This document shows, piece after piece, positions 11,942-35,779 of a stretch of 64,000 nucleotides of DNA (position 1 is the stretch's first letter; every line of letters begins with the position of its first letter). A program made the translations under genes and the position numbers. The notes below the pieces were generated by a model, which saw only the letters and a program-made list of their open reading frames with translations, was not told where the DNA came from and searched no databases. Origin of the DNA: a virus. The stretch is taken from IMG/VR virus record IMGVR_UViG_3300033149_003526, positions 1 to 64,000 of that record. One strand, 5' to 3'.

Positions 11942-11975
11942 AATTTAAATCTTTTTCAATAAAGGAGGATTGTAT

Positions 11976-13208
11976 ATGTTCTGGAAAACATTATTTTCTG
12001 GAAAAAAACAAAACGAATCTGATAAAGAATCACAAATTATAGAAACCCCATCAGCTTATGCTACTGAATTAGGAGGAGCTGAAAGTGTATCTGAAACATT
12101 AGATCCTAACACTATTGCTACTTTATATAATCGATCTGTATTGCTAAAACGTTATATTAAATATATAGTAAGTGAATGTTTAAGAAATGATATTATAGCA
12201 AGACCTAAACCAGAATATCAAAACAATAAAAAATCTAAAGATAAAGCAGAAAAACTAAATAATTTATTAGCATATTGTAATAAATACGAAACTTTTAGGG
12301 AAATAAGAGAAAAATATTTAAAAGATTATCTATTGTATGGTAGAGCAGGCATAGAAATAGAACCTTCAGATGTGCATGAATTTCCTACTGCTTTATATGC
12401 TGTTCCCGGATACTGTATTAAATTAAATACTGATAATTCAGGTAATTTTAAAGATCCTGAAAAAGCATATTTAATAGTTAATCCTAGTAGAACAGATGAA
12501 ATAGTAGCTACTTTTTCTTATTATTCTTTAGTGTATTTAATTTACGATAAATTAAGTGATAGAGTGTATGGTGAATCTCCTATTTTATCTATATATAATG
12601 AAATTGTAGCAGATTTAAATGCTTCTGAAAATTTACAAAATGCAGGATCATTAAAATCTGGTATAGTATCAGTAAAAAGGGCTAATAGAACAGTATTACA
12701 AAGTTTAATTGAAAAAATAAAGCAATTAATAAGAGTTAATGCTAAAGTTAAAATAGCTTCTATTAGTGCAGAAGATGCTAAATTTATAGATTTAACTAAT
12801 GCTACAGTAGAAGAATTAGTATCTTTACAAAAATGGATAGCTCAAAAAGGTAATGTATATAATATTCCACTGTATATATTAGGTTTAGAAATAAAAGGAT
12901 CTGCTACTGCAAGAGAACAAAAAGATGACTTTAGAGCATTAGTAGAAGAAATAATTAAGTATGAAATAGATAAATTAAACGCTATTATTCTTAATGCTAG
13001 ATTAGGCTGGAACGATGTAGAATTTTATTGTCCTAATTTAGCTACTAGAATTACTTATGAAAGAACTAGGGTAGCAGTAAGATTAGTAAATGCAGGAATA
13101 ATTACTCCTAATGAAGCTAGAACAGAATATTTAGGATTAAAACCATTAAACGATCCTGAAGCAAATAAACTTCACTCAAAAACTTCTCCTAAAAAAACTG
13201 AAGAGTAA
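11976..13208 (+). CDS. Portal protein
   Basis: ATG 11976 is preferred over the upstream TTG at 11970 because AAAGGAGG ends seven bases before it. The 410-residue product matches siphovirus portals in size, position after terL, and features. These are an N-terminal helical segment, KYLKDYLLYGRAGIEI, SDRVYGESPI near the middle, IPLYILGLE followed by SATAREQKDDF (the long stem helix), and a C-terminal helix ITPNEARTEYLGL. Portal forms the dodecameric channel at one head vertex. Its stop lies two bases from the stop of the converging structural operon, and the protease and capsid genes usually found next are 15 kb away on the other strand. Confidence 0.85.
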   Translation: MFWKTLFSGKKQNESDKESQIIETPSAYATELGGAESVSETLDPNTIATLYNRSVLLKRYIKYIVSECLRNDIIARPKPEYQNNKKSKDKAEKLNNLLAYCNKYETFREIREKYLKDYLLYGRAGIEIEPSDVHEFPTALYAVPGYCIKLNTDNSGNFKDPEKAYLIVNPSRTDEIVATFSYYSLVYLIYDKLSDRVYGESPILSIYNEIVADLNASENLQNAGSLKSGIVSVKRANRTVLQSLIEKIKQLIRVNAKVKIASISAEDAKFIDLTNATVEELVSLQKWIAQKGNVYNIPLYILGLEIKGSATAREQKDDFRALVEEIIKYEIDKLNAIILNARLGWNDVEFYCPNLATRITYERTRVAVRLVNAGIITPNEARTEYLGLKPLNDPEANKLHSKTSPKKTEE

Positions 13209-25079: not shown

Positions 25080-25589
25080 TTAACTAATATTTCTCTTTTT
25101 ATTAGTTAAAATCCAATATGGAATAAATATATAAGATAATTCGTTGTTTTTAATTAATAATTTTAAAAATTTATTAAAATTTTTAGTATCGTATTTTTTA
25201 ATAGATTCTGAATTTAAAATAAATAAACCAGAATCAGATATTCTATAATTATCAAAAATTAATTTATCATTTTCTATTCTCCAAGTTTTAGAACCTTTTA
25301 ATTTTTTTAAAAATACTATATTTTTATTAGTATTTTCATGTTTTTCTAATAAAATCTTATATGCATTAATTGGAAAAATTCTTAGTCCAAAACTAACTGC
25401 TATTTTATCAAATACTTGAGCATGTTCTTTAATTTTTAACATTGTATCTTTTATACTACACTTTTCAAATTCCTTAGATTCAAATCTAGTGTATATTTTA
25501 GCATAGTTACCTTTAATTTCATCTAATAAAGATCTACCTAAAATAGATAAATTTTTATCATATTCATTTATAAATACTAATAAAAGCAT
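25080..25589 (-). CDS. Hypothetical protein in the glycan-gene insert
   Basis: The 169-residue protein is not clearly recognised. Its second half, GSKTWRIENDKLIFDNYRIS followed by DSGLFILN, weakly resembles the later part of sugar nucleotidyltransferases (where a TDxGxYxL pattern occurs), but the NTP-binding N-terminal signature is absent. It is the third of three genes inserted between capsid and connector genes and is AT-rich like the two glycan genes. A role in the same glycan pathway is inferred from position only. Confidence 0.4.
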   Translation of the reverse strand: MLLLVFINEYDKNLSILGRSLLDEIKGNYAKIYTRFESKEFEKCSIKDTMLKIKEHAQVFDKIAVSFGLRIFPINAYKILLEKHENTNKNIVFLKKLKGSKTWRIENDKLIFDNYRISDSGLFILNSESIKKYDTKNFNKFLKLLIKNNELSYIFIPYWILTNKKRNIS

Positions 25590-25600
25590 ATAAAATCCTC

Positions 25601-26614
25601 CTATAATTGAAAACTATTTTTAAAATACGTAAAAAAATGATTTTTTTCAAATTTTAATATATGATTAATTTCAGGTAAATTGTCTAATTTTATATCACGC
25701 TCATTAGAAATTGCATACATATTTCGAATTGTGCTTATATTATCAAATAAATACTTAACAATTAAAGAACGGCTATCATAAGAAATATGTAAAGTATTAG
25801 CCCCAAAATATAAAGATGGAATTGTACCATGTACTCTAAAAGAAATTACATTTTTAGCTTTAGAATAAAATTCTAATAAATTTTTTGGATTATTTATACA
25901 AATTACATTATCTAATAAAGATTTAAAAACATTATAATCGTGAATATCATGACATAAACATAATAAATTTTTAAATTTATTTTTAGCTATTTTATACAAT
26001 ACATTGACTATAAATTTGTTATGAGTATTTAAATCTTTAAGTACTAATATATTAAATTCTTTAAAATTTTCATTTATTTTATAATATAATGGGGAAAAGT
26101 ATACAGAATCTGCTAATTGAATAGAATTTATTTGCAAATTTTCTAATACTTTTTGAGTTAATAAATCTCTTGTAATAATTAAATCGTAAATTTTAAAATT
26201 ATTTAAAATAAAATTTTTATGATTATTAATTATTAATCCAACTGATTTTTTTAAATCTCTATCTACTAATTGGTCTACAAACCCTACCCATAAATTAAAA
26301 ATTTTAATTCCTTTAGATTTAGCTTTAAATAAAACATCATAAAAACTTTGATTGAATCTATTAGGAATATAATCAGTAGTTAGCTGAGGAGTGCCACATA
26401 ATACTATAACATCTGCTTCTTCTAACATTCTATTCCAGGTAATTTTATCATTTAAATTAAATAAATTTACATAATTAAATATAGCAAATCTATTATTTAT
26501 TTTATATTCAGCTTCGTATAGTAAATACTCTATTCCTTTTCCTATTAAAATATCACCTGGATTAGGATTTTCATAATGAGTATCTGTAAGTAAAAAATAT
26601 TTTACTACTTGCAT
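25601..26614 (-). CDS. Polysaccharide pyruvyl transferase-family protein
   Basis: The 337-residue protein shows family features of polysaccharide pyruvyl transferases: an N-terminal DTHYENPNPGDILIGKGIEY (nucleotide-binding start, N/GD signature), ADVIVLCGTPQLTTDY in the middle, and near residue 255 ISFRVHGTIPSLYFGANTL (the SxRxHG motif). These enzymes add pyruvate ketals or act as sugar transferases in surface glycan synthesis. It overlaps the GT9 gene by ten bases. Lying between capsid and connector genes, it may decorate virions or alter the host envelope. Confidence 0.8.
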   Translation of the reverse strand: MQVVKYFLLTDTHYENPNPGDILIGKGIEYLLYEAEYKINNRFAIFNYVNLFNLNDKITWNRMLEEADVIVLCGTPQLTTDYIPNRFNQSFYDVLFKAKSKGIKIFNLWVGFVDQLVDRDLKKSVGLIINNHKNFILNNFKIYDLIITRDLLTQKVLENLQINSIQLADSVYFSPLYYKINENFKEFNILVLKDLNTHNKFIVNVLYKIAKNKFKNLLCLCHDIHDYNVFKSLLDNVICINNPKNLLEFYSKAKNVISFRVHGTIPSLYFGANTLHISYDSRSLIVKYLFDNISTIRNMYAISNERDIKLDNLPEINHILKFEKNHFFTYFKNSFQL

Positions 26615-27942
26615 ATTTCTAATAATTTTTTAATTATCATCTCTGGAAATATTTTATACAAACAAAACCCTTCTAATTGATATTTTACACAATGTCTATT
26701 TTTAGGTTCTACTCTCTGAGTATCCCAACAAGGAGAACAAGGAACTGGTGCTTGGATAGGGTAACAATTTTTATAGGTACTACATCTCCATTCTGCTGGT
26801 ATAGGACCAAATAAAGCAATAGTTTTAGTATCAAATGCACCTGCTACATGTAATACCCCAGTATCTACTGTAATTAAATAATCCAACTTCCAAACAATAG
26901 CAAATAATTGTCTTAAATTAGTTTTACCTCTTAAATCTAAATAACTACCAATAAAAGATGAATATGGTTCTTTATTATTTCCGATTAGTACTGGAGTAAA
27001 CTTTAATTTATTTAATTCAACGATTAATCTTTGAACATGTTGTCTAAAATACGATCTATTAGTGCCTACTGCACTCCAACAAATGCCTACTGAATTATTA
27101 CAATTTTTTAAAGTATCTATTGCATATTGTTTTTCTTTTTCATCTAATATGATAATAGGTTTATCTATTAATAGCTCATTGGGTTGTAAATTACATAAAT
27201 ATGCAGTAGAATAAATTCTATGTTGCTGATTAAATGTTAAATTATAAGCACTTAGTCTATAACTTAATGTAATATAATTGTATTTATAAATAGGAATTTC
27301 GTTTCTATTAGTATATATTTTGTCAATAAAATCTAAATTTTTAAAAATATCTACCTTTGATTGATCTACTAAATACGCTACTTTATATCCTTTTTTATAT
27401 AATGTATAAGCACTAGGTAAACTCATTAAAATATCTCCTAAACCATCATAAGTTTCTATTAAAATATCAGGTTTAGAATTACTCTTTATAAACTCTTTTA
27501 GCAATTTTAAATTACTATCTTTATTAATAATTGGTATTTTAAAACCAGTATACTTACTAAATAAATTAGCATATTTCTCTGCATCTTTAGTATTATTATG
27601 AAATACTCCATTAAAAATAAGAGGATTTTTAAATATTGTATGGATGAACCATTCAAATCCAGTTTCTACATATACTATTTTATCACTTATTACATAATTT
27701 TCTGGTAATATATCACATACATATATAACCCCTATATTATGTCTAATTAATTGTTTAATAAATTTTTTATCTATATTTTTATTATAATGGTGAAAACAAA
27801 AACCTACTACTAAACTTCTTATGTTTAAAGGAGGGAAAATTACAGTTCCTAAACTAAGTTTTAATTTTCTTTTATTAGAAACTTTATAGTAAATTTTAAT
27901 AGGATTTAAATTTTCTAATGGATTAATATTTAAATAAATCAC
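26605..27942 (-). CDS. GT9 (heptosyltransferase-like) glycosyltransferase
   Basis: The 445-residue protein has an N-terminal extension of about 160 residues and then a GT-B glycosyltransferase of family 9. Its motifs include IETYDGLGDILMSLPSAYTL, VGICWSAVGTNRSY, LRQLFAIVWKLDYLITVDTG, VLHVAGAF and TIALFGPIPAEW. A Cys cluster follows (CSPCWD, HCVK, GFCLY) as in some thermophile GT9 proteins. It is the first gene after the capsid hairpin and has its own promoter-like element and an AGGAGG site. The donor is unknown. Capsid or host-surface glycosylation is inferred. Confidence 0.8.
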   Translation of the reverse strand: MIYLNINPLENLNPIKIYYKVSNKRKLKLSLGTVIFPPLNIRSLVVGFCFHHYNKNIDKKFIKQLIRHNIGVIYVCDILPENYVISDKIVYVETGFEWFIHTIFKNPLIFNGVFHNNTKDAEKYANLFSKYTGFKIPIINKDSNLKLLKEFIKSNSKPDILIETYDGLGDILMSLPSAYTLYKKGYKVAYLVDQSKVDIFKNLDFIDKIYTNRNEIPIYKYNYITLSYRLSAYNLTFNQQHRIYSTAYLCNLQPNELLIDKPIIILDEKEKQYAIDTLKNCNNSVGICWSAVGTNRSYFRQHVQRLIVELNKLKFTPVLIGNNKEPYSSFIGSYLDLRGKTNLRQLFAIVWKLDYLITVDTGVLHVAGAFDTKTIALFGPIPAEWRCSTYKNCYPIQAPVPCSPCWDTQRVEPKNRHCVKYQLEGFCLYKIFPEMIIKKLLEICK

Positions 27943-28037: not shown

Positions 28038-29015
28038 TTATGATCCAAGATGAATTTTAACTAAACCTTCAACTTTATCATTAGTATTCTTGTACACAGG
28101 TTTAAAATCTATTTCCTCTGCAAGTATTATTCTCTTGCTAAATTTCTCTTCAATATCTTTTTCTCTTACAAAGATGTCTTTTCTTACACCGAGTATAAAC
28201 GCATCTTTTCTTACCAAAATAGCAACCTCACCACTTTCAGTACCATCTAAATAAGAAGTCTCAAAAACTTTAATTCCCATTACTGGAGGCAAAGTTCCTG
28301 TTTTAAGCAAATCAGTATCAGGTCTAAAATCTGCTCTATAAAGCTTTTCATTTTTTCTTAATCTATTCCCAAATGTTAAAGAACAAATTAACACTAAATC
28401 ATTAGTATTTCTACCATAAACTCCTAATGCTTTTCTAGCATCAGCTATTTTAGCTACTATATCATCAGATGCGCTATAAGTAACTGGCGAAGTAGCACAA
28501 GAACTACTAGAAGCAATAGTATAAATTCCATCAAATATAGTATTATATCCAGAACCAGCACCAGCACTACCTAATAACATAGCTTTCTCTTCTGCCTCAG
28601 CTAACTTTTTAGTCAATGCTTGTCTAATTGCCTTAGCTAAATCAATTCCTGCTGTTTCCAAATCATCTTCAATTATATCTACAAATGCTACTAACAACTG
28701 TGGGGTAAGAACTATAGGCTTAGAAGTATCTATTGTAGTTTCATTTAATGTACCAGGAGCTATTTCAGTCCCATAAGAAACTTTGTAAACATTCAAATCT
28801 GTACCGTAAAGTACAGAAGGAATAGTTAAATTTCTAGCATTTTTAGGTACATTAATTTTAGGGAATATTTTTCTCAAAATATTAGATTCAGTAATTTCCT
28901 CTATTACTTTTTTAGAAACTGGTTTAGGTAGTATGTTACTACCAGTATTATCAGGTATCTGACCTAAATCATCAGCTTTAATTAAATCTAATAATTTTTT
29001 AACTTTTTTCTCCAT
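28038..29015 (-). CDS. Major capsid protein, HK97 fold
   Basis: The 325-residue protein has HK97-fold capsid features. A short N-terminal arm leads to NILRKIFPKINVPKNARNL, then the spine helix region LETAGIDLAKAIRQALTKKL with AEAEEKAMLLG. The A-domain follows (DLVLICSLTFGNRLRKN and PPVMGIKVFETSYL) with beta strands to the C-terminus (KPVYKNTNDKVEGLVKIHLG). There is no long N-terminal delta domain, consistent with a separate scaffold. It follows the protease/scaffold gene and is preceded by AAGGAGGTG. It is expected to be the most abundant virion protein, matching the strong hairpin behind it. Confidence 0.88.
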   Translation of the reverse strand: MEKKVKKLLDLIKADDLGQIPDNTGSNILPKPVSKKVIEEITESNILRKIFPKINVPKNARNLTIPSVLYGTDLNVYKVSYGTEIAPGTLNETTIDTSKPIVLTPQLLVAFVDIIEDDLETAGIDLAKAIRQALTKKLAEAEEKAMLLGSAGAGSGYNTIFDGIYTIASSSSCATSPVTYSASDDIVAKIADARKALGVYGRNTNDLVLICSLTFGNRLRKNEKLYRADFRPDTDLLKTGTLPPVMGIKVFETSYLDGTESGEVAILVRKDAFILGVRKDIFVREKDIEEKFSKRIILAEEIDFKPVYKNTNDKVEGLVKIHLGS

Positions 29016-29029
29016 AAATATGCACCTCC

Positions 29030-29428
29030 TTATTTATTTGTTAAATATTTATAAAATAATTCATCGGGATCTTCTTCTTTATTATTCTCTTCTTCTTTAT
29101 CTTCATTTTTAATCAAAGATTTCTTATTGTCTACTACTGTAATTGTTTTAACTTTTTCTTTTACTAATTTTGTTAACTCTTCTAACATATTTTTTATATC
29201 TTTAATTTCTGCTTTAATTTCCTCTATACTTTCTCTCATTTTCTTACCATAGTAATAGTAGTAATAATATTCATATTCTTCTTTATCTTCTTCTTTTTTT
29301 TCTTTATCAGTCATTTCCTCTTTAACTTCTTCTTTCTTTTCTTCTTCTTTATTAACTTCATCTTCTAATAAATCTTTAATTTCTTTTTCAGATAATTCTT
29401 CTTGTTTTTTAATATCTTTCTTTTCCAC
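29030..29428 (-). CDS. Nested scaffold-like protein from internal start
   Basis: In the protease gene codon 199 is GTG, preceded on the minus strand by AAAAAGGAGGTGAAATT, a near-perfect ribosome binding site at ideal spacing. This is in frame and would yield a 132-residue coiled-coil protein without the protease domain. It contains the Tyr run and the helical segment RESIEEIKAEIKDIKNMLEE. The arrangement matches lambda C/Nu3, where the scaffold is made from an internal start of the protease gene. Confidence 0.6.
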   Translation of the reverse strand: MEKKDIKKQEELSEKEIKDLLEDEVNKEEEKKEEVKEEMTDKEKKEEDKEEYEYYYYYYYGKKMRESIEEIKAEIKDIKNMLEELTKLVKEKVKTITVVDNKKSLIKNEDKEEENNKEEDPDELFYKYLTNK

Positions 29429-30022
29429 AATTTCACCTCCTTTTTCTTCTTCATTTTGTTTTATACATTTATATAAAGCCTTACTAAATGATTCCAATAC
29501 TTGAGCTTGTGCATTAGCTGGTATACCTACAAAACTAACTTCATATAGTTCCATTTCTTTTATAACTAATACAAATTTTAAATTAGGTCGTTCTTTTTTA
29601 ATATTTTCTGATAAATATCCATTTTTAATTGCTTCGTCTATAGGGATCTCTACTGCATCAACTAATTTTCCTCCTATAGAAAACTTTGATATTATACCTT
29701 CTTGTATTTTTACTCTTAAATCTTTAGCTAACTGACTAACATATATTTTTACTAGCAAACCTTTATCATCTACAGTAGCATCTATAACTTTACCTACAGC
29801 GTTATCTAAATCATATTGATGATTATAAAAGACAGTACTATTAATAGTTTTTAATTTATCAGCAGCTTTTTCTAATGCTTCTTTTAAGATAATATCTCCT
29901 TGTCTATCTAAATCCGTTGTAGCTGCATATCCAACTACATAAAAACCTTTATCGCTTGGTTTTCCTTTTTGTTTAACTATAGGAACATCAAAACGAAATA
30001 TTTTTTCAAATTTATATTGCAT
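29030..30022 (-). CDS. Prohead protease fused to scaffold-like domain
   Basis: Residues 20-180 are an HK97-type prohead protease (herpesvirus assemblin fold): GYAATTDLDRQGDIILKEAL, catalytic His68 in FYNHQYDLDNAVG, Ser115 in SKFSIGG, and ELYEVSFVGIPANAQA. From about 190 the protein is a Lys/Glu-rich coiled coil with a run of seven Tyr (near 257-263) and a C-terminal LFYKYLTNK, resembling a scaffold. The scaffold part can also start at an internal GTG (see 29030-29428). The protease trims the scaffold and capsid during maturation. Confidence 0.85.
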   Translation of the reverse strand: MQYKFEKIFRFDVPIVKQKGKPSDKGFYVVGYAATTDLDRQGDIILKEALEKAADKLKTINSTVFYNHQYDLDNAVGKVIDATVDDKGLLVKIYVSQLAKDLRVKIQEGIISKFSIGGKLVDAVEIPIDEAIKNGYLSENIKKERPNLKFVLVIKEMELYEVSFVGIPANAQAQVLESFSKALYKCIKQNEEEKGGEIVEKKDIKKQEELSEKEIKDLLEDEVNKEEEKKEEVKEEMTDKEKKEEDKEEYEYYYYYYYGKKMRESIEEIKAEIKDIKNMLEELTKLVKEKVKTITVVDNKKSLIKNEDKEEENNKEEDPDELFYKYLTNK

Positions 30023-30077: not shown

Positions 30078-33000
30078 TTAAAATTTAAAATTAATAGCAT
30101 ATAATAATTTATATATATATTCAACATCAATTAAAAATTGCTTATCTCTTTTATTTTTTTCTTCATAAACTTCTTGATTTTTAGGTTTATAAAATAACCA
30201 TATTCTTTTACCATTTATAGGAGCATACATAAATATATACCAACCATCAAATAATTTACCTTTAAATTTAAATAATTTAAAATGTTTACCATGAGGAGAA
30301 GTTTGTCTACCTGCATACCAAGTACCTTTTTCATGTACCCAAAAAGAAGCATAATTATTAGAAGTTGAACCTATAGAATCTGGAGGCACTATTAAAGGTT
30401 TACCGTCTCCTACAGTTAACCAACTTGCAGGTCCTCTTACTACTGGTTCTTTAGGTGTCTTATCCCCAATTTCTGAAACATGTGGAGTTTTTAACATAAA
30501 TTGTAGATGAATATGTTCATTTACTTTTAATAACCTATTTTCTTTAAATTGATTACCAGGAGTAGTCCAATGACCACCTTCAAAATAATCAGCTCCTTCT
30601 GGTACTAGTCTTAGATCTTGGTGTATACTAACTGGATCTAACAAAGCAATTAATTTTCTCATATTATCAGGTAAAGATTTATAATCTATATTTTTAAGTA
30701 ATTTATTAATTAATTTAGTTAAATTTTTACTAGATTTGTTAGGGCTTTTAGCTTCACTTATAGCTTTTTTCCATTCTGTAATTGTAATATCTTTATATAA
30801 ATTATGAATTGCTTTTATTTCATCATTAGTTGGTATAAAATATTCTCTATCTAATCCATATTTTTTTATGTCAGATAAAGTTAACTCATCGATAAAAATA
30901 GGTCTAATTCCTCTAGTATGACATTGGACACAATACTTACCTACCATACCTTCTTCTATAGTCCATTGACCAGTAATATTTTCTTTATCTGATAAAATAT
31001 AAAAATCATAAAAAGTTTTAGTTTTAGAAACACTTAATTTATCTACTATTAAATAACTATCAGGTTCTTTTTTATCTGGTTTTAATGTTAATACTCTAGC
31101 TTGAAATAAAGTATATTTTATTTTTCCATCTACTATTTCTTTTTTATATTCTGCTGCTGCTATATTTAATATTTGTCCTACATTTGCTTCTATCTTTGTA
31201 TTAAAAGTTTTGCCTAAAACTCCATAATATTTTCCATTTAATTCTTTTACAGGAGTAAACTTATCTTTTTTATCTTGCGGTATTCCATAACCTACTATAT
31301 AATTATAATTACCTGCTCTATTTTTAATTTTTTCTAGCACTATGGTATCTAACTCTAATGCATATTTTAATTTACACCACGTCAATGTATTCCCATCTAA
31401 TTCATAAGTCCCAGAATAGTATTTTAACATAAAACCATCTATTCCGTGCAATCTTCCTAATTTTAATTTATCTACATTATTTTCATAGTATTTAAATAAT
31501 TTTTCTAACTGTTCTTTAGTTTTTATATCGTAACTAGAAACTAATATAAAATGCTTTTTAAATTTTTTAGCTACTTCGTTTAGTATTTTAATTCTTTCAG
31601 ATAAAGGAAGGTTATGTAAATCTTTTCCATTATAATATAAAATATCAAATACAAATATTCTTACATTTTCATCAGATCCAGGATCTTTAGCTTGAGACCA
31701 TCTCATTAAATCGTGTCTAGATAACCATACTTTTTTATTTGGAGATAATTCCATTAATTCTGAATCAAATATAATTCCATTTTCATTTAAATCCGATAAT
31801 TCTTTAACTACATTTGGAAATTTCTCAGCTACATTCTTTTTACTATCTTCAAAATATATTAGAGTCTTTCCATTTTTATCTTGACTTAATACACATCGCC
31901 AACCGTCTATTTTTAAATCTGCTCTAATTTTACCTTCTGTTTCAACCCCATATTTTCCAAAATATTGCCATGCATCATCTACATTAAAATACTCTATATC
32001 ATGATAAGCAGAACCTGTAGCTTTCAATGGAGGAAATACTTGTAATGGTTTCAACTTTTTATCCTTTTTCTCTATTTTATCTATAGTTAACTTAGTATTA
32101 CATTTAGGACATCTATTTATAAATGAATTAGATATTATTTTGTATCCACAATTATCACATGCAAATAAAACATCATTTAAACATAATATAAATTTACCAT
32201 CATAATACTTAGAACTAGCTGGTCTAATTATAACTATATCGTACCGATTTTTTAGTTGTTTTAAAAAACCAAATAATTTATCTTTTTTAACTACCCATCT
32301 AAGTGGTACTAATTTAGGTTTATCTAGTTTATCTAACCATTTTTTTCCCATAAAAAATATTCTATTTATCAATATTTCACTTAAAAAACTATCTTTTTTA
32401 TAAGCTAATAAATCAGTTATAATTTCTTTATTGTTTTTAGTTATAATTTTTTCATATATAACTCTATTTTCTTTATCTACAACTAAATAAAAATCCCCAT
32501 TTATATATGGTTCTACTATAAATTTTTTACTATTCATATTTAAGTTTTTATTAATTTTACATATTGAATATTTTCTGTTATAATCAGGAACTGCAATAGT
32601 TTTTATTATAGGAACTTTTTTCTTTTTTAAAATTAAATCATAAACACTCAATATTTCGCCATGACTAGCTACATTACCTATAAAATGAGGATTATATTTT
32701 TCTAAGTATTTTCTAAGTATTTTTTCTAATTCTCTTGGTGCTACAATATCTACATCATTAGGATCAGGTTTATATAACACTGAACCAACAAATTTAACTA
32801 TATCACTTTTTATAGTTATTTCATCTTCTAATTCATTCCATATTTCATATACTTTAATTTCTTTCCCTAAAATTCTGTAAGTAAGTTTATCTAAATCATT
32901 AACTAAATTATGATTTAATCCTCTTTTCAACATTTCTTTTACTACCAAAACATGTACTTTTAAAATTTTATCTTTAGTTATAGCTTTAGTTTCTATAGAT

Positions 33001-33950
33001 TTATTTCTTAAATCTTTTCTACTTAATAATCCCCATAACTGATGACATCTTAAATGTAAACTAACTAACTCTTTGTTTGATATGTTATGTAAAATAGATG
33101 GATCATTTAAAATTTCATCAAATCCTGGTTTTAATATTAACTCATCTTTTCTATAAATGATATAATATTTATTTAAATCTATATCAAATTTCTCTCCTTC
33201 TCTTGCTGTTCTAACTACTTTTGTTTTACAATCTTTATGTTCTTTTTTATATTCTTTTAATTTTTCTTCTAATATATTATCTGCTTCGCATAATGGTGGA
33301 TATTGATTACCCATACCTGTAAATAATAGATATTTATTATTTAATGAGACCAAATAATCAAAATGTTTTAAAACTGCTATATGATTGTTTAAAGGTATTT
33401 GATGATTCCAATATGCTCCATCTATAATTGCTAAAATATTATTAGAAAAATATTTTATATTATATTCATCAAATATAGGACCCATATCAGGTGCATACAA
33501 AAATACATCTTCAAAATTAAAAGCTATAGTAGGAAATCTTTTATCATGGAATACTTTTAATACTCTTATACTTAATCCACCTATATTGTAAGTTTTATTT
33601 GATTTAATTTCTTGAAAATTAAATCCTATCCAATTTTTTATATTCCATCTTTCTTTTATCCTATTAAATACTTGTTTTAATAGATATACAGTAACTATCT
33701 TATTATTTTTTTCTAAAAATTGATTAAGTTTATACATACCACCAATAGCATCATCGTGTCCATGAGTTATTAGTATAAAATCAAGAGATAATAATTCCTC
33801 TTCTAATGTTTTTTCTAAAATATCATCCCCTACATCTACCATTAAAGTAGTATTAGCATGTTTAATTAAAATAGAAGGATGGTATTTACCTAGATATTTC
33901 TTAGTAGGTTTACTAGTTTCTGCTTTTGTTCCTAATACTTTTATAATCAT
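30078..33950 (-). CDS. Giant MBL-nucleotidyltransferase-DNA ligase-LigD-PE fusion
   Basis: The 1290-residue protein has, in order: a metallo-beta-lactamase fold (1-230; ITHGHDDAIGG at 61-71, where the usual HxHxDH ends in Ala68; PDMG at 154-157); a helical part (290-370); a nucleotidyltransferase-like motif (VGS...DVDIV, 388-403); a zinc ribbon (C598, C601, C614, C617); an ATP-dependent DNA ligase (K680 in LKIDGWR, FDSELM 729-734, DGFMLKYYSG 838-847, CKLK 859-862) with OB-like region; a second CxxC (1007-1010); and a degenerate LigD-type 3'-phosphoesterase domain (SIHQDLRL, H1110 and D1112; HIH 1146-1148). It overlaps the upstream structural gene by four bases (ATGA) and precedes the protease gene. 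Nick or end repair in packaged or incoming DNA is inferred. Confidence 0.85.
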   Translation of the reverse strand: MIIKVLGTKAETSKPTKKYLGKYHPSILIKHANTTLMVDVGDDILEKTLEEELLSLDFILITHGHDDAIGGMYKLNQFLEKNNKIVTVYLLKQVFNRIKERWNIKNWIGFNFQEIKSNKTYNIGGLSIRVLKVFHDKRFPTIAFNFEDVFLYAPDMGPIFDEYNIKYFSNNILAIIDGAYWNHQIPLNNHIAVLKHFDYLVSLNNKYLLFTGMGNQYPPLCEADNILEEKLKEYKKEHKDCKTKVVRTAREGEKFDIDLNKYYIIYRKDELILKPGFDEILNDPSILHNISNKELVSLHLRCHQLWGLLSRKDLRNKSIETKAITKDKILKVHVLVVKEMLKRGLNHNLVNDLDKLTYRILGKEIKVYEIWNELEDEITIKSDIVKFVGSVLYKPDPNDVDIVAPRELEKILRKYLEKYNPHFIGNVASHGEILSVYDLILKKKKVPIIKTIAVPDYNRKYSICKINKNLNMNSKKFIVEPYINGDFYLVVDKENRVIYEKIITKNNKEIITDLLAYKKDSFLSEILINRIFFMGKKWLDKLDKPKLVPLRWVVKKDKLFGFLKQLKNRYDIVIIRPASSKYYDGKFILCLNDVLFACDNCGYKIISNSFINRCPKCNTKLTIDKIEKKDKKLKPLQVFPPLKATGSAYHDIEYFNVDDAWQYFGKYGVETEGKIRADLKIDGWRCVLSQDKNGKTLIYFEDSKKNVAEKFPNVVKELSDLNENGIIFDSELMELSPNKKVWLSRHDLMRWSQAKDPGSDENVRIFVFDILYYNGKDLHNLPLSERIKILNEVAKKFKKHFILVSSYDIKTKEQLEKLFKYYENNVDKLKLGRLHGIDGFMLKYYSGTYELDGNTLTWCKLKYALELDTIVLEKIKNRAGNYNYIVGYGIPQDKKDKFTPVKELNGKYYGVLGKTFNTKIEANVGQILNIAAAEYKKEIVDGKIKYTLFQARVLTLKPDKKEPDSYLIVDKLSVSKTKTFYDFYILSDKENITGQWTIEEGMVGKYCVQCHTRGIRPIFIDELTLSDIKKYGLDREYFIPTNDEIKAIHNLYKDITITEWKKAISEAKSPNKSSKNLTKLINKLLKNIDYKSLPDNMRKLIALLDPVSIHQDLRLVPEGADYFEGGHWTTPGNQFKENRLLKVNEHIHLQFMLKTPHVSEIGDKTPKEPVVRGPASWLTVGDGKPLIVPPDSIGSTSNNYASFWVHEKGTWYAGRQTSPHGKHFKLFKFKGKLFDGWYIFMYAPINGKRIWLFYKPKNQEVYEEKNKRDKQFLIDVEYIYKLLYAINFKF

Positions 33951-35779
33951 GATATAATTATATTATTAAAATTAGCTCCTATTGCATCTGGCACTGAAAT
34001 ATAATAAATTTTTTTATTGTTTATTTTGACTATATAATATGAATATGAATTATTTTCCATATTTTCATTATCTATTAATTTTAATTCAAAATAACCATGC
34101 TGATTAGGATAAACTGTTATAGGTTTATTGTAAATTGTAATATTATTTTTATATTTAACTGCTTGTTTATTTAAATATACTTGTATAGGTACATTTTGAA
34201 TATCTTCTATAGTATTATCCAAATCTGTAATCCATCCAGTTACTGTGCATATTGTTACTTCTTCTTTATTAGCTCCTGCATAATCATAATCCATAGTAAT
34301 AGAGTCTAATTCTGGTGTATTTTTACCAGTAGCACTATATAATATTGCTTTAATACGAATATCAGATGGATTAGTCAATAATTTTGAAATATGTTCATTT
34401 AAATCTACTAAAAAATTTGATTGATTGTAACTACCATCTGATTGTACCCAATTATTACCATCATAATAATAATCTATTCCATTCACATTTATAATATATT
34501 TAATTTCAGTATCAACTGGTTTAGCTGATACTTCAGCTAACAATAATATGTCGTCTGTTCTAATAGGAGAAGAAGTCATTATAAAAGCTCCATCAGTTAT
34601 ATACCCTTCTCCAATATAATCAATAGTTACATAATTAATCATATTTTGATCATTACTATTAGGAAAAATTGCTTTTAATTTAATTGTAGTTAATCCTGAT
34701 ACATCTAATTCATCAATATGCTGAGATATAACATTAAATGAATTTGATTGATTATACGATAAATCTGATTGTACCCATTGATTTCCATTCCAATATTTAT
34801 CATTAATTACATAGTGAACTTCATCAAAATCTGCTGCATAAAAATTAGTTAAAGATACAATATTTCCAGGATAACCATCATGTACAAAATCAGGAAATTC
34901 AACTATACTTTCTTGATAATCAGCTTCTGGTACTGTATATCCTTTTTGATAATTACTTGTATGTTGCACTTCACTAAATATTATTAAATCGTCTATATAA
35001 AAATTTGCAGACCATGAAGTGTCATCATTATGTAATGCTTTTCCTATTCGTAATAAATGTATATTACTGTTTCTAACTCCAGTTGCACTAACTACTCCAT
35101 TTTGCAATATACCATCAATAAATAAATATATATGACCAGCATCTAAATCAAAATCTAACTCAAATTCATATTCAATCCCAGCAGTAGGATTCCAATTACC
35201 CAAATTAGGTTGTGTAATTACATTTCCATTTTGATCTCTAAAAAGCAGATATAATGCTCCATTAGTAGAGTGATATATTGAAATCATGTTATTACTATTA
35301 CCATTAGCATTAGTAATTAAAATAAAAGCTTGAAATTTAGATGGATAACCATTGTAATTAGGTGTTAATTTAAATCTAATACATCCTTTTTGAACCATAT
35401 TTGCATTATCAACTGCGCTATAATCTATATATTTATCAGAATATCCAGTTAAATCTAATTTACCATTAAATATAGTAGCATTATTACTAGCAATAAAATT
35501 TAAATTTCCATTTCCAAAACTTAAATTTTTAGAATTAGTAAAAGTAGCTCCACATAAACAATTATTAGGTCTAAGATATTTTTGTTTTATTTTTTCATCT
35601 TCAAATTTAATTTTATCAGGATTGTATATAAAACCTGTATCACTATCACAATCATTCCTAAATTGTAAATTTAAATGATTTACTTTTAATTTAGCTTTAC
35701 CATTAATTACTTCTATTTTATCTGATTCAAATATATAATTACTAGAATTTTCAAATGGAAATGTAGTTTGTAAAGCCAT
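33947..35779 (-). CDS. Virion protein with LamG-like domain and tandem repeats
   Basis: The 610-residue protein has a concanavalin/LamG-like domain at about 95-270 (FKLTPNYNGYPSKFQAFILI, IYLFIDGILQNG, FYIDDLIIFSE). Two related repeats of about 100 residues follow, sharing NGNQWVQSDLSYNQSN and DGNNWVQSDGSYNQSN, and then a C-terminal Ig/carboxypeptidase-regulatory-like domain (VTGWITDLDNTIEDIQNVPI). It is a likely glycan-binding appendage or tail fibre. The N-terminus is less conserved in look. It is tightly coupled to the downstream giant ligase fusion gene. Confidence 0.6.
   Translation of the reverse strand: MALQTTFPFENSSNYIFESDKIEVINGKAKLKVNHLNLQFRNDCDSDTGFIYNPDKIKFEDEKIKQKYLRPNNCLCGATFTNSKNLSFGNGNLNFIASNNATIFNGKLDLTGYSDKYIDYSAVDNANMVQKGCIRFKLTPNYNGYPSKFQAFILITNANGNSNNMISIYHSTNGALYLLFRDQNGNVITQPNLGNWNPTAGIEYEFELDFDLDAGHIYLFIDGILQNGVVSATGVRNSNIHLLRIGKALHNDDTSWSANFYIDDLIIFSEVQHTSNYQKGYTVPEADYQESIVEFPDFVHDGYPGNIVSLTNFYAADFDEVHYVINDKYWNGNQWVQSDLSYNQSNSFNVISQHIDELDVSGLTTIKLKAIFPNSNDQNMINYVTIDYIGEGYITDGAFIMTSSPIRTDDILLLAEVSAKPVDTEIKYIINVNGIDYYYDGNNWVQSDGSYNQSNFLVDLNEHISKLLTNPSDIRIKAILYSATGKNTPELDSITMDYDYAGANKEEVTICTVTGWITDLDNTIEDIQNVPIQVYLNKQAVKYKNNITIYNKPITVYPNQHGYFELKLIDNENMENNSYSYYIVKINNKKIYYISVPDAIGANFNNIIIS

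Follow-up and report, generated by a model that had tools for sequence, protein, structure and literature searches.

A predicted LigD-like DNA-repair polypeptide encoded among the head genes of tailed viruses of prokaryotes

Why would a virus encode a large, multidomain DNA ligase among its head genes? The question is raised by IMG/VR record IMGVR_UViG_3300033149_003526, a virus contig of 66,851 bases, of which the first 64,000 were analysed and are called the window here. The gene is a 1290-amino-acid (aa) open reading frame (ORF) with an ATG start, on the minus strand at 30078-33950. The best explanation is that it belongs to a family of DNA-repair polypeptides encoded in the head loci of tailed prokaryotic viruses. 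The family has a core of predicted nucleotidyltransferase (NTase), ligase and 3'-phosphoesterase (PE) activities, and optional metallo-beta-lactamase (MBL), uracil-DNA glycosylase (UDG), Dam and S-adenosylmethionine (SAM) methyltransferase modules. We assign a probability of roughly 0.55 to the reading that the product is a LigD-like 'polyvalent' protein that repairs DNA ends and nicks and is delivered into the prohead. Since the arrangement recurs in about two dozen distant viruses and is often joined to the head protease, it suggests that the particles of these viruses are loaded with a set of DNA-repair enzymes.

Relatives with the NTase-ligase-PE core were found on 28 IMG/VR contigs and in the archaeal virus ANMV-1, the latter from an annotated phage collection; once near-duplicates are removed they represent about 24 distinct lineages (loci are numbered L001 and so on). 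The loci were chosen by similarity of the ligase protein alone, and the neighbouring genes were annotated with PHROGs and purpose-built profiles. Every lineage has a portal, MuF, maturation protease or major capsid protein (MCP) gene, or more than one of these, within a few genes of the ligase gene. The genes typically run terminase, portal, MuF, ligase protein, protease, MCP, and in ANMV-1 the ligase gene is directly downstream of the portal gene. The neighbouring MCPs span several PHROGs (267/10/617, 212, 1005, 1623 and 133). The first-pass annotation had assigned the gene to a virion operon, and the survey agrees: the homologues sit among head genes and not consistently with replication genes. 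The ANMV-1 protein AJP62005 (L005 1913-3193), labelled 'MutT-like phage hydrolase', matches Phage_portal_3 (E=3e-22) and is probably misannotated. Gp43 of BcepIL02 (FJ937737.2) was considered as a contrast and set aside; its short ligase gene also adjoins TerL, but on the opposite strand, so it is not a clean control.

Could the protein be an ordinary replication or repair ligase that occupies the late region by chance or history? We think this improbable. Each of 19 records searched, many of them fragments, holds a single match to the ligase family PF01068, and no NAD (nicotinamide adenine dinucleotide) ligase was found in 13 records (many again fragments, with those of about 57-77 kb included); the lack of another ligase would suit a replicative role. 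However, about 24 lineages, with several capsid families among them, share the head-locus placement, the replication genes of the window are elsewhere on the opposite strand, and an ordinary ligase needs neither PE, NTase nor a protease fusion.

The association with the head extends to the polypeptide itself. A Peptidase_S78_2 domain, the head maturation protease XkdF, is present in the same chain in 11 of the 19 proteins scanned (E 4e-14 to 2e-32), at the chain end (L010, L014, L016, L018, L019, L023, L026, L030, L032, L034 and L037). The protease has its own gene downstream in the window, L001, L002, L003, L008, L009, L012 and L013. The C-terminal domain of L018 shares 50% identity with the head maturation protease of psiM100, and on a tree of the ligase domain the fused and separate states are explained by only two changes. 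These fusions strengthen the first-pass idea of a factor made late and perhaps packaged. Between ligase and PE, the L002 and L003 proteins have the peptide LLKADDLGQITSPHGDPLPWPV, almost identical to the N-terminus of the MCP of the respective virus (KADDLGQ..., codon at 2139 in L002 and at 12609 in L003). The L003 peptide aligns with a score of 93, against 28+-4.5 for shuffled sequences (0/2000). This peptide, which the window allele does not have, may have arisen by partial duplication or may act in both proteins as a signal for assembly or cleavage. An AAA+ ATPase is encoded inside or beside the ligase gene in L003 and L012, and phage BCS1-like AAA+ proteins have been proposed as translocators of proteins packaged into the head (PMC7824862). 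In L003 (9672-15994) the ATPase follows the ligase in frame and the PE is a separate, overlapping ORF.

The main alternative, which we rate as unlikely, is that the protein acts late inside the cell, mending replicated DNA whose nicks, gaps or blocked ends would otherwise stall the terminase, with the head operon serving for timing only. This would explain both the head-locus linkage and the repair modules with no packaging of the protein, and the gene does encode the sole ligase found in the records searched. It leaves unexplained the repeated fusion to the prohead protease and the MCP-like peptide, both of which concern the prohead interior.

Beyond these virus records the family was not seen. 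Two scans of 84,980 bacterial and archaeal species, one genome each, gave no relative, although scans with short conserved peptides can miss distant relatives. The genome-contig scans used the window-clade alignment and the XkdF-fused alignment. A plasmid search returned only cellular LigD and stand-alone XkdF, and an IMG/VR scan with ANMV-1 alone returned nothing.

The 1290-aa chain has the following parts, all on the minus strand:

30078..33950, minus strand: whole polypeptide, MBL / Pyr_excise-like / NTase / zinc-ribbon / ATP-dependent ligase / LigD-type phosphoesterase
31341..32033, minus strand: ligase adenylation domain, aa 640-870, with K680 (PF01068 E=6e-25; catalytic Lys in 24/24)
30996..31340, minus strand: ligase oligonucleotide/oligosaccharide-binding (OB)-type region, aa 871-985, with motif VI-like KPDK at 957-960 (from the alignment; OB inferred from position and motif)
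30186..30983, minus strand: LigD-type 3'-phosphoesterase, aa 990-1255, with H1011, H1110, D1112, R1114 and H1223 (structure model, Foldseek and alignment)
33186..33950, minus strand: MBL fold, aa 1-255, with H63, H65, D67, A68, H135, D155 and H190 (Lactamase_B_2 E=9e-11; motifs also in L001 and L003)
32856..33113, minus strand: helical Pyr_excise-like domain, aa 280-365 (PF03013 at E<=1 in 11 of 14 homologues; window E=0.009, below cut-off)
32586..32855, minus strand: Pol-beta-like NTase motif region, aa 366-455, with G389-S390, D399, D401 and D438
32175..32585, minus strand: domain of aa 456-592, only in the window clade (from the alignment; no Foldseek match)
32076..32174, minus strand: zinc ribbon, aa 593-625, with C598, C601, C614 and C617 (weak Pfam matches; CxxC pairs kept in L001 and L003)

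Pfam and motif analysis confirm that MBL, an NTase-like motif, a zinc ribbon (weak) and a ligase with K680 are joined in one frame, as first annotated; the Pyr_excise-like domain and the domain of aa 456-592 were absent from that earlier list.

In the ligase part, DNA_ligase_A_M (PF01068) matches aa 672-862 (E=6e-25), and phmmer of the whole protein against the PDB returned DNA ligases along with MBL proteins. Motif I is K680-I-D-G-W-R685, fitting KxDGxR; motif III has E731, motif IV reads DGFMLK and motif V is K860-x-K862, so the motifs reported at first are largely kept. The window clade has Asp in place of Glu in motif IV and KPDK in place of RxDK in motif VI. Across the family the catalytic lysine is present in 24/24 members and the KxK motif is nearly invariant. 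By domain identity the enzyme is of the DNA-ligase type. Between L002 and L003 the ratio of nonsynonymous to synonymous substitution rates is about 0.12 for the ligase, 0.09-0.12 for the PE and 0.125 for the MCP, values that place ligase and PE under purifying selection. The close relatives L001 (6413-11296) and L002 (3-3314) carry inteins of 357-360 aa at the identical point of ligase motif I (K-[IV]-DGWR^C); the window allele has no intein there.

The C-terminal region, for which Pfam gives no match in the window protein itself (about aa 990-1255), was identified by its modelled fold. An AlphaFold model of the last 306 residues reached a predicted local distance difference test score (pLDDT) of 85.6. 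In Foldseek the top six PDB matches were all LigD PE (among them 3p43, the best with E=4e-5 and probability 1.0, and 3n9b, 3n9d, 2lj6 and 5dmp), and LigD phosphoesterases were the sole significant matches. The homologue in L019 passes the cut-off of Pfam LigD_N (PF13298), and the HxDxR motif aligns with that of LigD PE by profile. H1011, H1110-x-D1112-x-R1114 and H1223 are invariant or near-invariant columns among 19 homologues, and we take them to be the known PE active-site residues. The model and the L019 match confirm a divergent LigD-type 3'-phosphoesterase, of predicted activity. The first-pass annotation was right about the LigD origin of this domain, which per-domain modelling and Foldseek now support, but not in calling it degenerate: with catalytic-type residues conserved in 19 homologues it is divergent only. 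The domain also carries a helical insert of about 95 aa. In L003 a second LAGLIDADG/intein-like insertion takes the place of about 35 PE residues.

Ahead of the ligase, the MBL fold is recognised by Lactamase_B_2 at aa 49-193 (E=9e-11). It has the ligands H63-x-H65-x-D67-A68, H135, D155 and H190, that is, all but the last His of HxHxDH. Ala68 had been taken as a hint of novel substrate or mechanism, a view now weakened: Ala is common to the window clade and the separate MBL gene of L012, L016 keeps the canonical His, and the optional, movable nature of the module makes it a poor basis for a new mechanism. Ala68 was therefore set aside as a mark of new MBL chemistry. For the helical domain, the best family match to Pyr_excise (PF03013, T4 endonuclease V-like) has E=9e-6, and L023 is over the cut-off while the window sequence is under it; a comparison with the PDB gave designed helical proteins and chance matches only. 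The NTase motif, GSx8DVD (G389-S390...D399-V-D401) with a third Asp at D438, recurs in every homologue that holds the region. Searched against the PDB, a profile of this region had DNA polymerase beta as its sole match, and a marginal one (E about 0.05). The structure model of aa 262-660 was of low confidence, and its comparison by Foldseek yielded no usable match, the stretch of aa 456-592 included.

The modules set between the core domains vary. MBL is found in the window clade and L016, and as a separate gene in L012. The SAM methyltransferase module is present in L008, L010, L014, L030, L034, L037 and L044, Dam in L014 and L019, and a fused UDG in L032 (E=3e-21) and L037. A few relatives have weak RNA_ligase matches. 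The member in L044 (3597-9011), 1804 aa long, matches ADP-ribosyltransferases, has a methyltransferase and contains recurring segments similar to 'FNPHHGAGGRFA'. Such modules bear on a counter-defence or RNA-end repair role, in which the MBL would degrade a nucleotide signal and the ligase and PE would mend cleaved RNA. We give this little credence. The MBL is weakly similar to the phosphodiesterase Apyc1, and the ADP-ribosyltransferase and RNA_ligase matches point the same way; against this, the ligase is of the DNA type, the PE matches LigD phosphoesterases that act on DNA, and UDG and Dam are DNA enzymes.

The neighbouring genes in the window are as follows:

33947..35779, minus strand: upstream 610-aa ORF with a weak LamG-like match, 4-base overlap with the ligase gene
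29030..30022, minus strand: prohead protease with charged C-terminal tail (Peptidase_S78 E=2e-10; phrog_80 E=3e-25)
28038..29015, minus strand: MCP, HK97 type (Phage_capsid E=2e-10; phrog_267)
11970..13208, plus strand: portal protein, on the strand opposite to the ligase gene (Phage_portal E=1e-19)

Downstream of the ligase gene are thus the prohead protease and then the MCP; the portal gene of the window clade lies elsewhere and not beside the ligase gene. Genes for recombination and replication (RecA, SMC/SbcC-like, calcineurin-like phosphoesterases and a primase-helicase) are on the plus strand, far from the ligase gene. The four-base coupling to the upstream ORF and the position just before the protease and away from replication genes both hold as first described. 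The bacterial-type RecA and the DnaG/DnaB-like primase-helicase suggest a bacterial host. Between the MCP and connector genes (25080-27942) are a glycosyltransferase 9, a polysaccharide pyruvyl transferase and a small ORF, a set unusual for a head operon; a similar set is present in L001, L002 and L003.

Under delivery into the prohead, the ligase protein would be made late with the head proteins and would enter the prohead with the maturation protease: in many relatives the two share one chain, and in the window they come from adjacent genes. It would stay with the packaged DNA and be ejected along with it. On packaged or freshly ejected DNA, 3' ends would be cleaned by the PE and perhaps the MBL, a few nucleotides may be added by the NTase, and the ligase would seal nicks or genome ends. 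The relatives with UDG agree with a role in repairing virion DNA that has been deaminated or damaged in some other way. The ends of the genome may also be circularized, but no Ku was found in the 13 records searched.

Seen directly are the ORF, the domain identities apart from the NTase fold, conserved catalytic residues, purifying selection, linkage to the head locus and fusion to the maturation protease; late expression, packaging, ejection, catalysis, substrates and the order of the steps are inferred. Several points weigh against delivery. The window clade encodes its protease and ligase in two genes, and a protease fusion means prohead entry only if the chain is uncleaved before assembly; head proteases often destroy internal proteins. 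The Pol-beta-like NTase fold is probable rather than shown, since the profile match is marginal and Foldseek gave no support. Ku (PF02735) was not found in 13 records, some of them fragments, and a host Ku is possible. Lastly, in L014, L030, L034, L037 and L044 Asn replaces the motif I Asp and the motif III Glu is not clear, so the ligase of these members may be inactive. This subgroup, with the missing last His of the window-clade MBL, would suit a reading in which the enzyme domains are largely inactive and serve the prohead by binding DNA or as scaffold. That explanation is hardly credible, as the window ligase and PE keep their catalytic residues and are under purifying selection.

The broader proposal is more tentative, at a little under even odds: among uncultivated tailed viruses that infect bacteria and archaea, many may carry inside the capsid a LigD-like repair machine (NTase, ligase and 3'-phosphoesterase, with UDG, MBL or methyltransferase modules), installed by fusion or coupling to the head maturation protease, that repairs or circularizes the genome on entry. 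The enzymes known to be injected by phages are mostly host-modifying, transcription or anti-restriction factors. If true, the proposal would give the viruses of prokaryotes a parallel to the repair enzymes that some large eukaryotic viruses package. It would also suggest a testable explanation of how a packaged genome that is damaged or nicked can be replicated once ejected, with XkdF fusion as a possible cargo-loading route.

How does the family compare with known systems? In a literature search of incomplete coverage, which leaves the novelty of the family provisional, no earlier description of a ligase or LigD-type PE with a prohead protease or in virions was found. The LigD ligase of bacterial and archaeal non-homologous end joining (NHEJ), like the window protein, unites an ATP-dependent ligase, a 3'-phosphoesterase (compare the stand-alone 3n9b, 3p43 and 5dmp) and a nucleotidyl-transferring domain in one chain. 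In LigD, however, the last is an archaeo-eukaryotic primase (AEP)-type primase-polymerase, which Pfam and NCBIfam did not find in the window protein, whereas here it is a Pol-beta-like NTase motif in the order NTase-ligase-PE. The window protein further differs in its added MBL and zinc ribbon and its viral head locus. With no Ku found in 13 records and no primase domain, full LigD/NHEJ identity was rejected. The mycobacteriophages Omega and Corndog offer a likeness in LigD-type joining on phage entry; they express Ku and employ the host LigD (Pitcher et al. 2006, as cited in PMC7719229), whereas the window virus encodes ligase and PE, with no Ku found. African swine fever virus packages components of base excision repair, with Pol X, apurinic/apyrimidinic endonuclease and DNA ligase listed in the virion or nucleoid (PMC12172490); these are separate proteins of an unrelated eukaryotic virus, a parallel in working only, with no homology claimed. 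The portal-adjacent ANMV-1 ligase (AJP62006, KP703175; 866 aa) shares the NTase motif, ligase and PE-like end, but is 24% identical, has no MBL or zinc ribbon and is annotated as a ligase only. The polyvalent proteins of phages and conjugative elements (Iyer et al. 2017, PMC5512222) are likewise large multidomain polypeptides whose genes lie among those of the virion. They have Pol-beta NTase, methyltransferase and ADP-ribosyltransferase domains, and many of them are predicted to be packaged; the main text of that paper does not mention 'DNA ligase', MBL-ligase-PE or XkdF fusions, and the core of the present family differs in being one of DNA end repair. The best reading is that the window family consists of polyvalent virion-locus proteins that are LigD-like in their predicted working but are not LigD.

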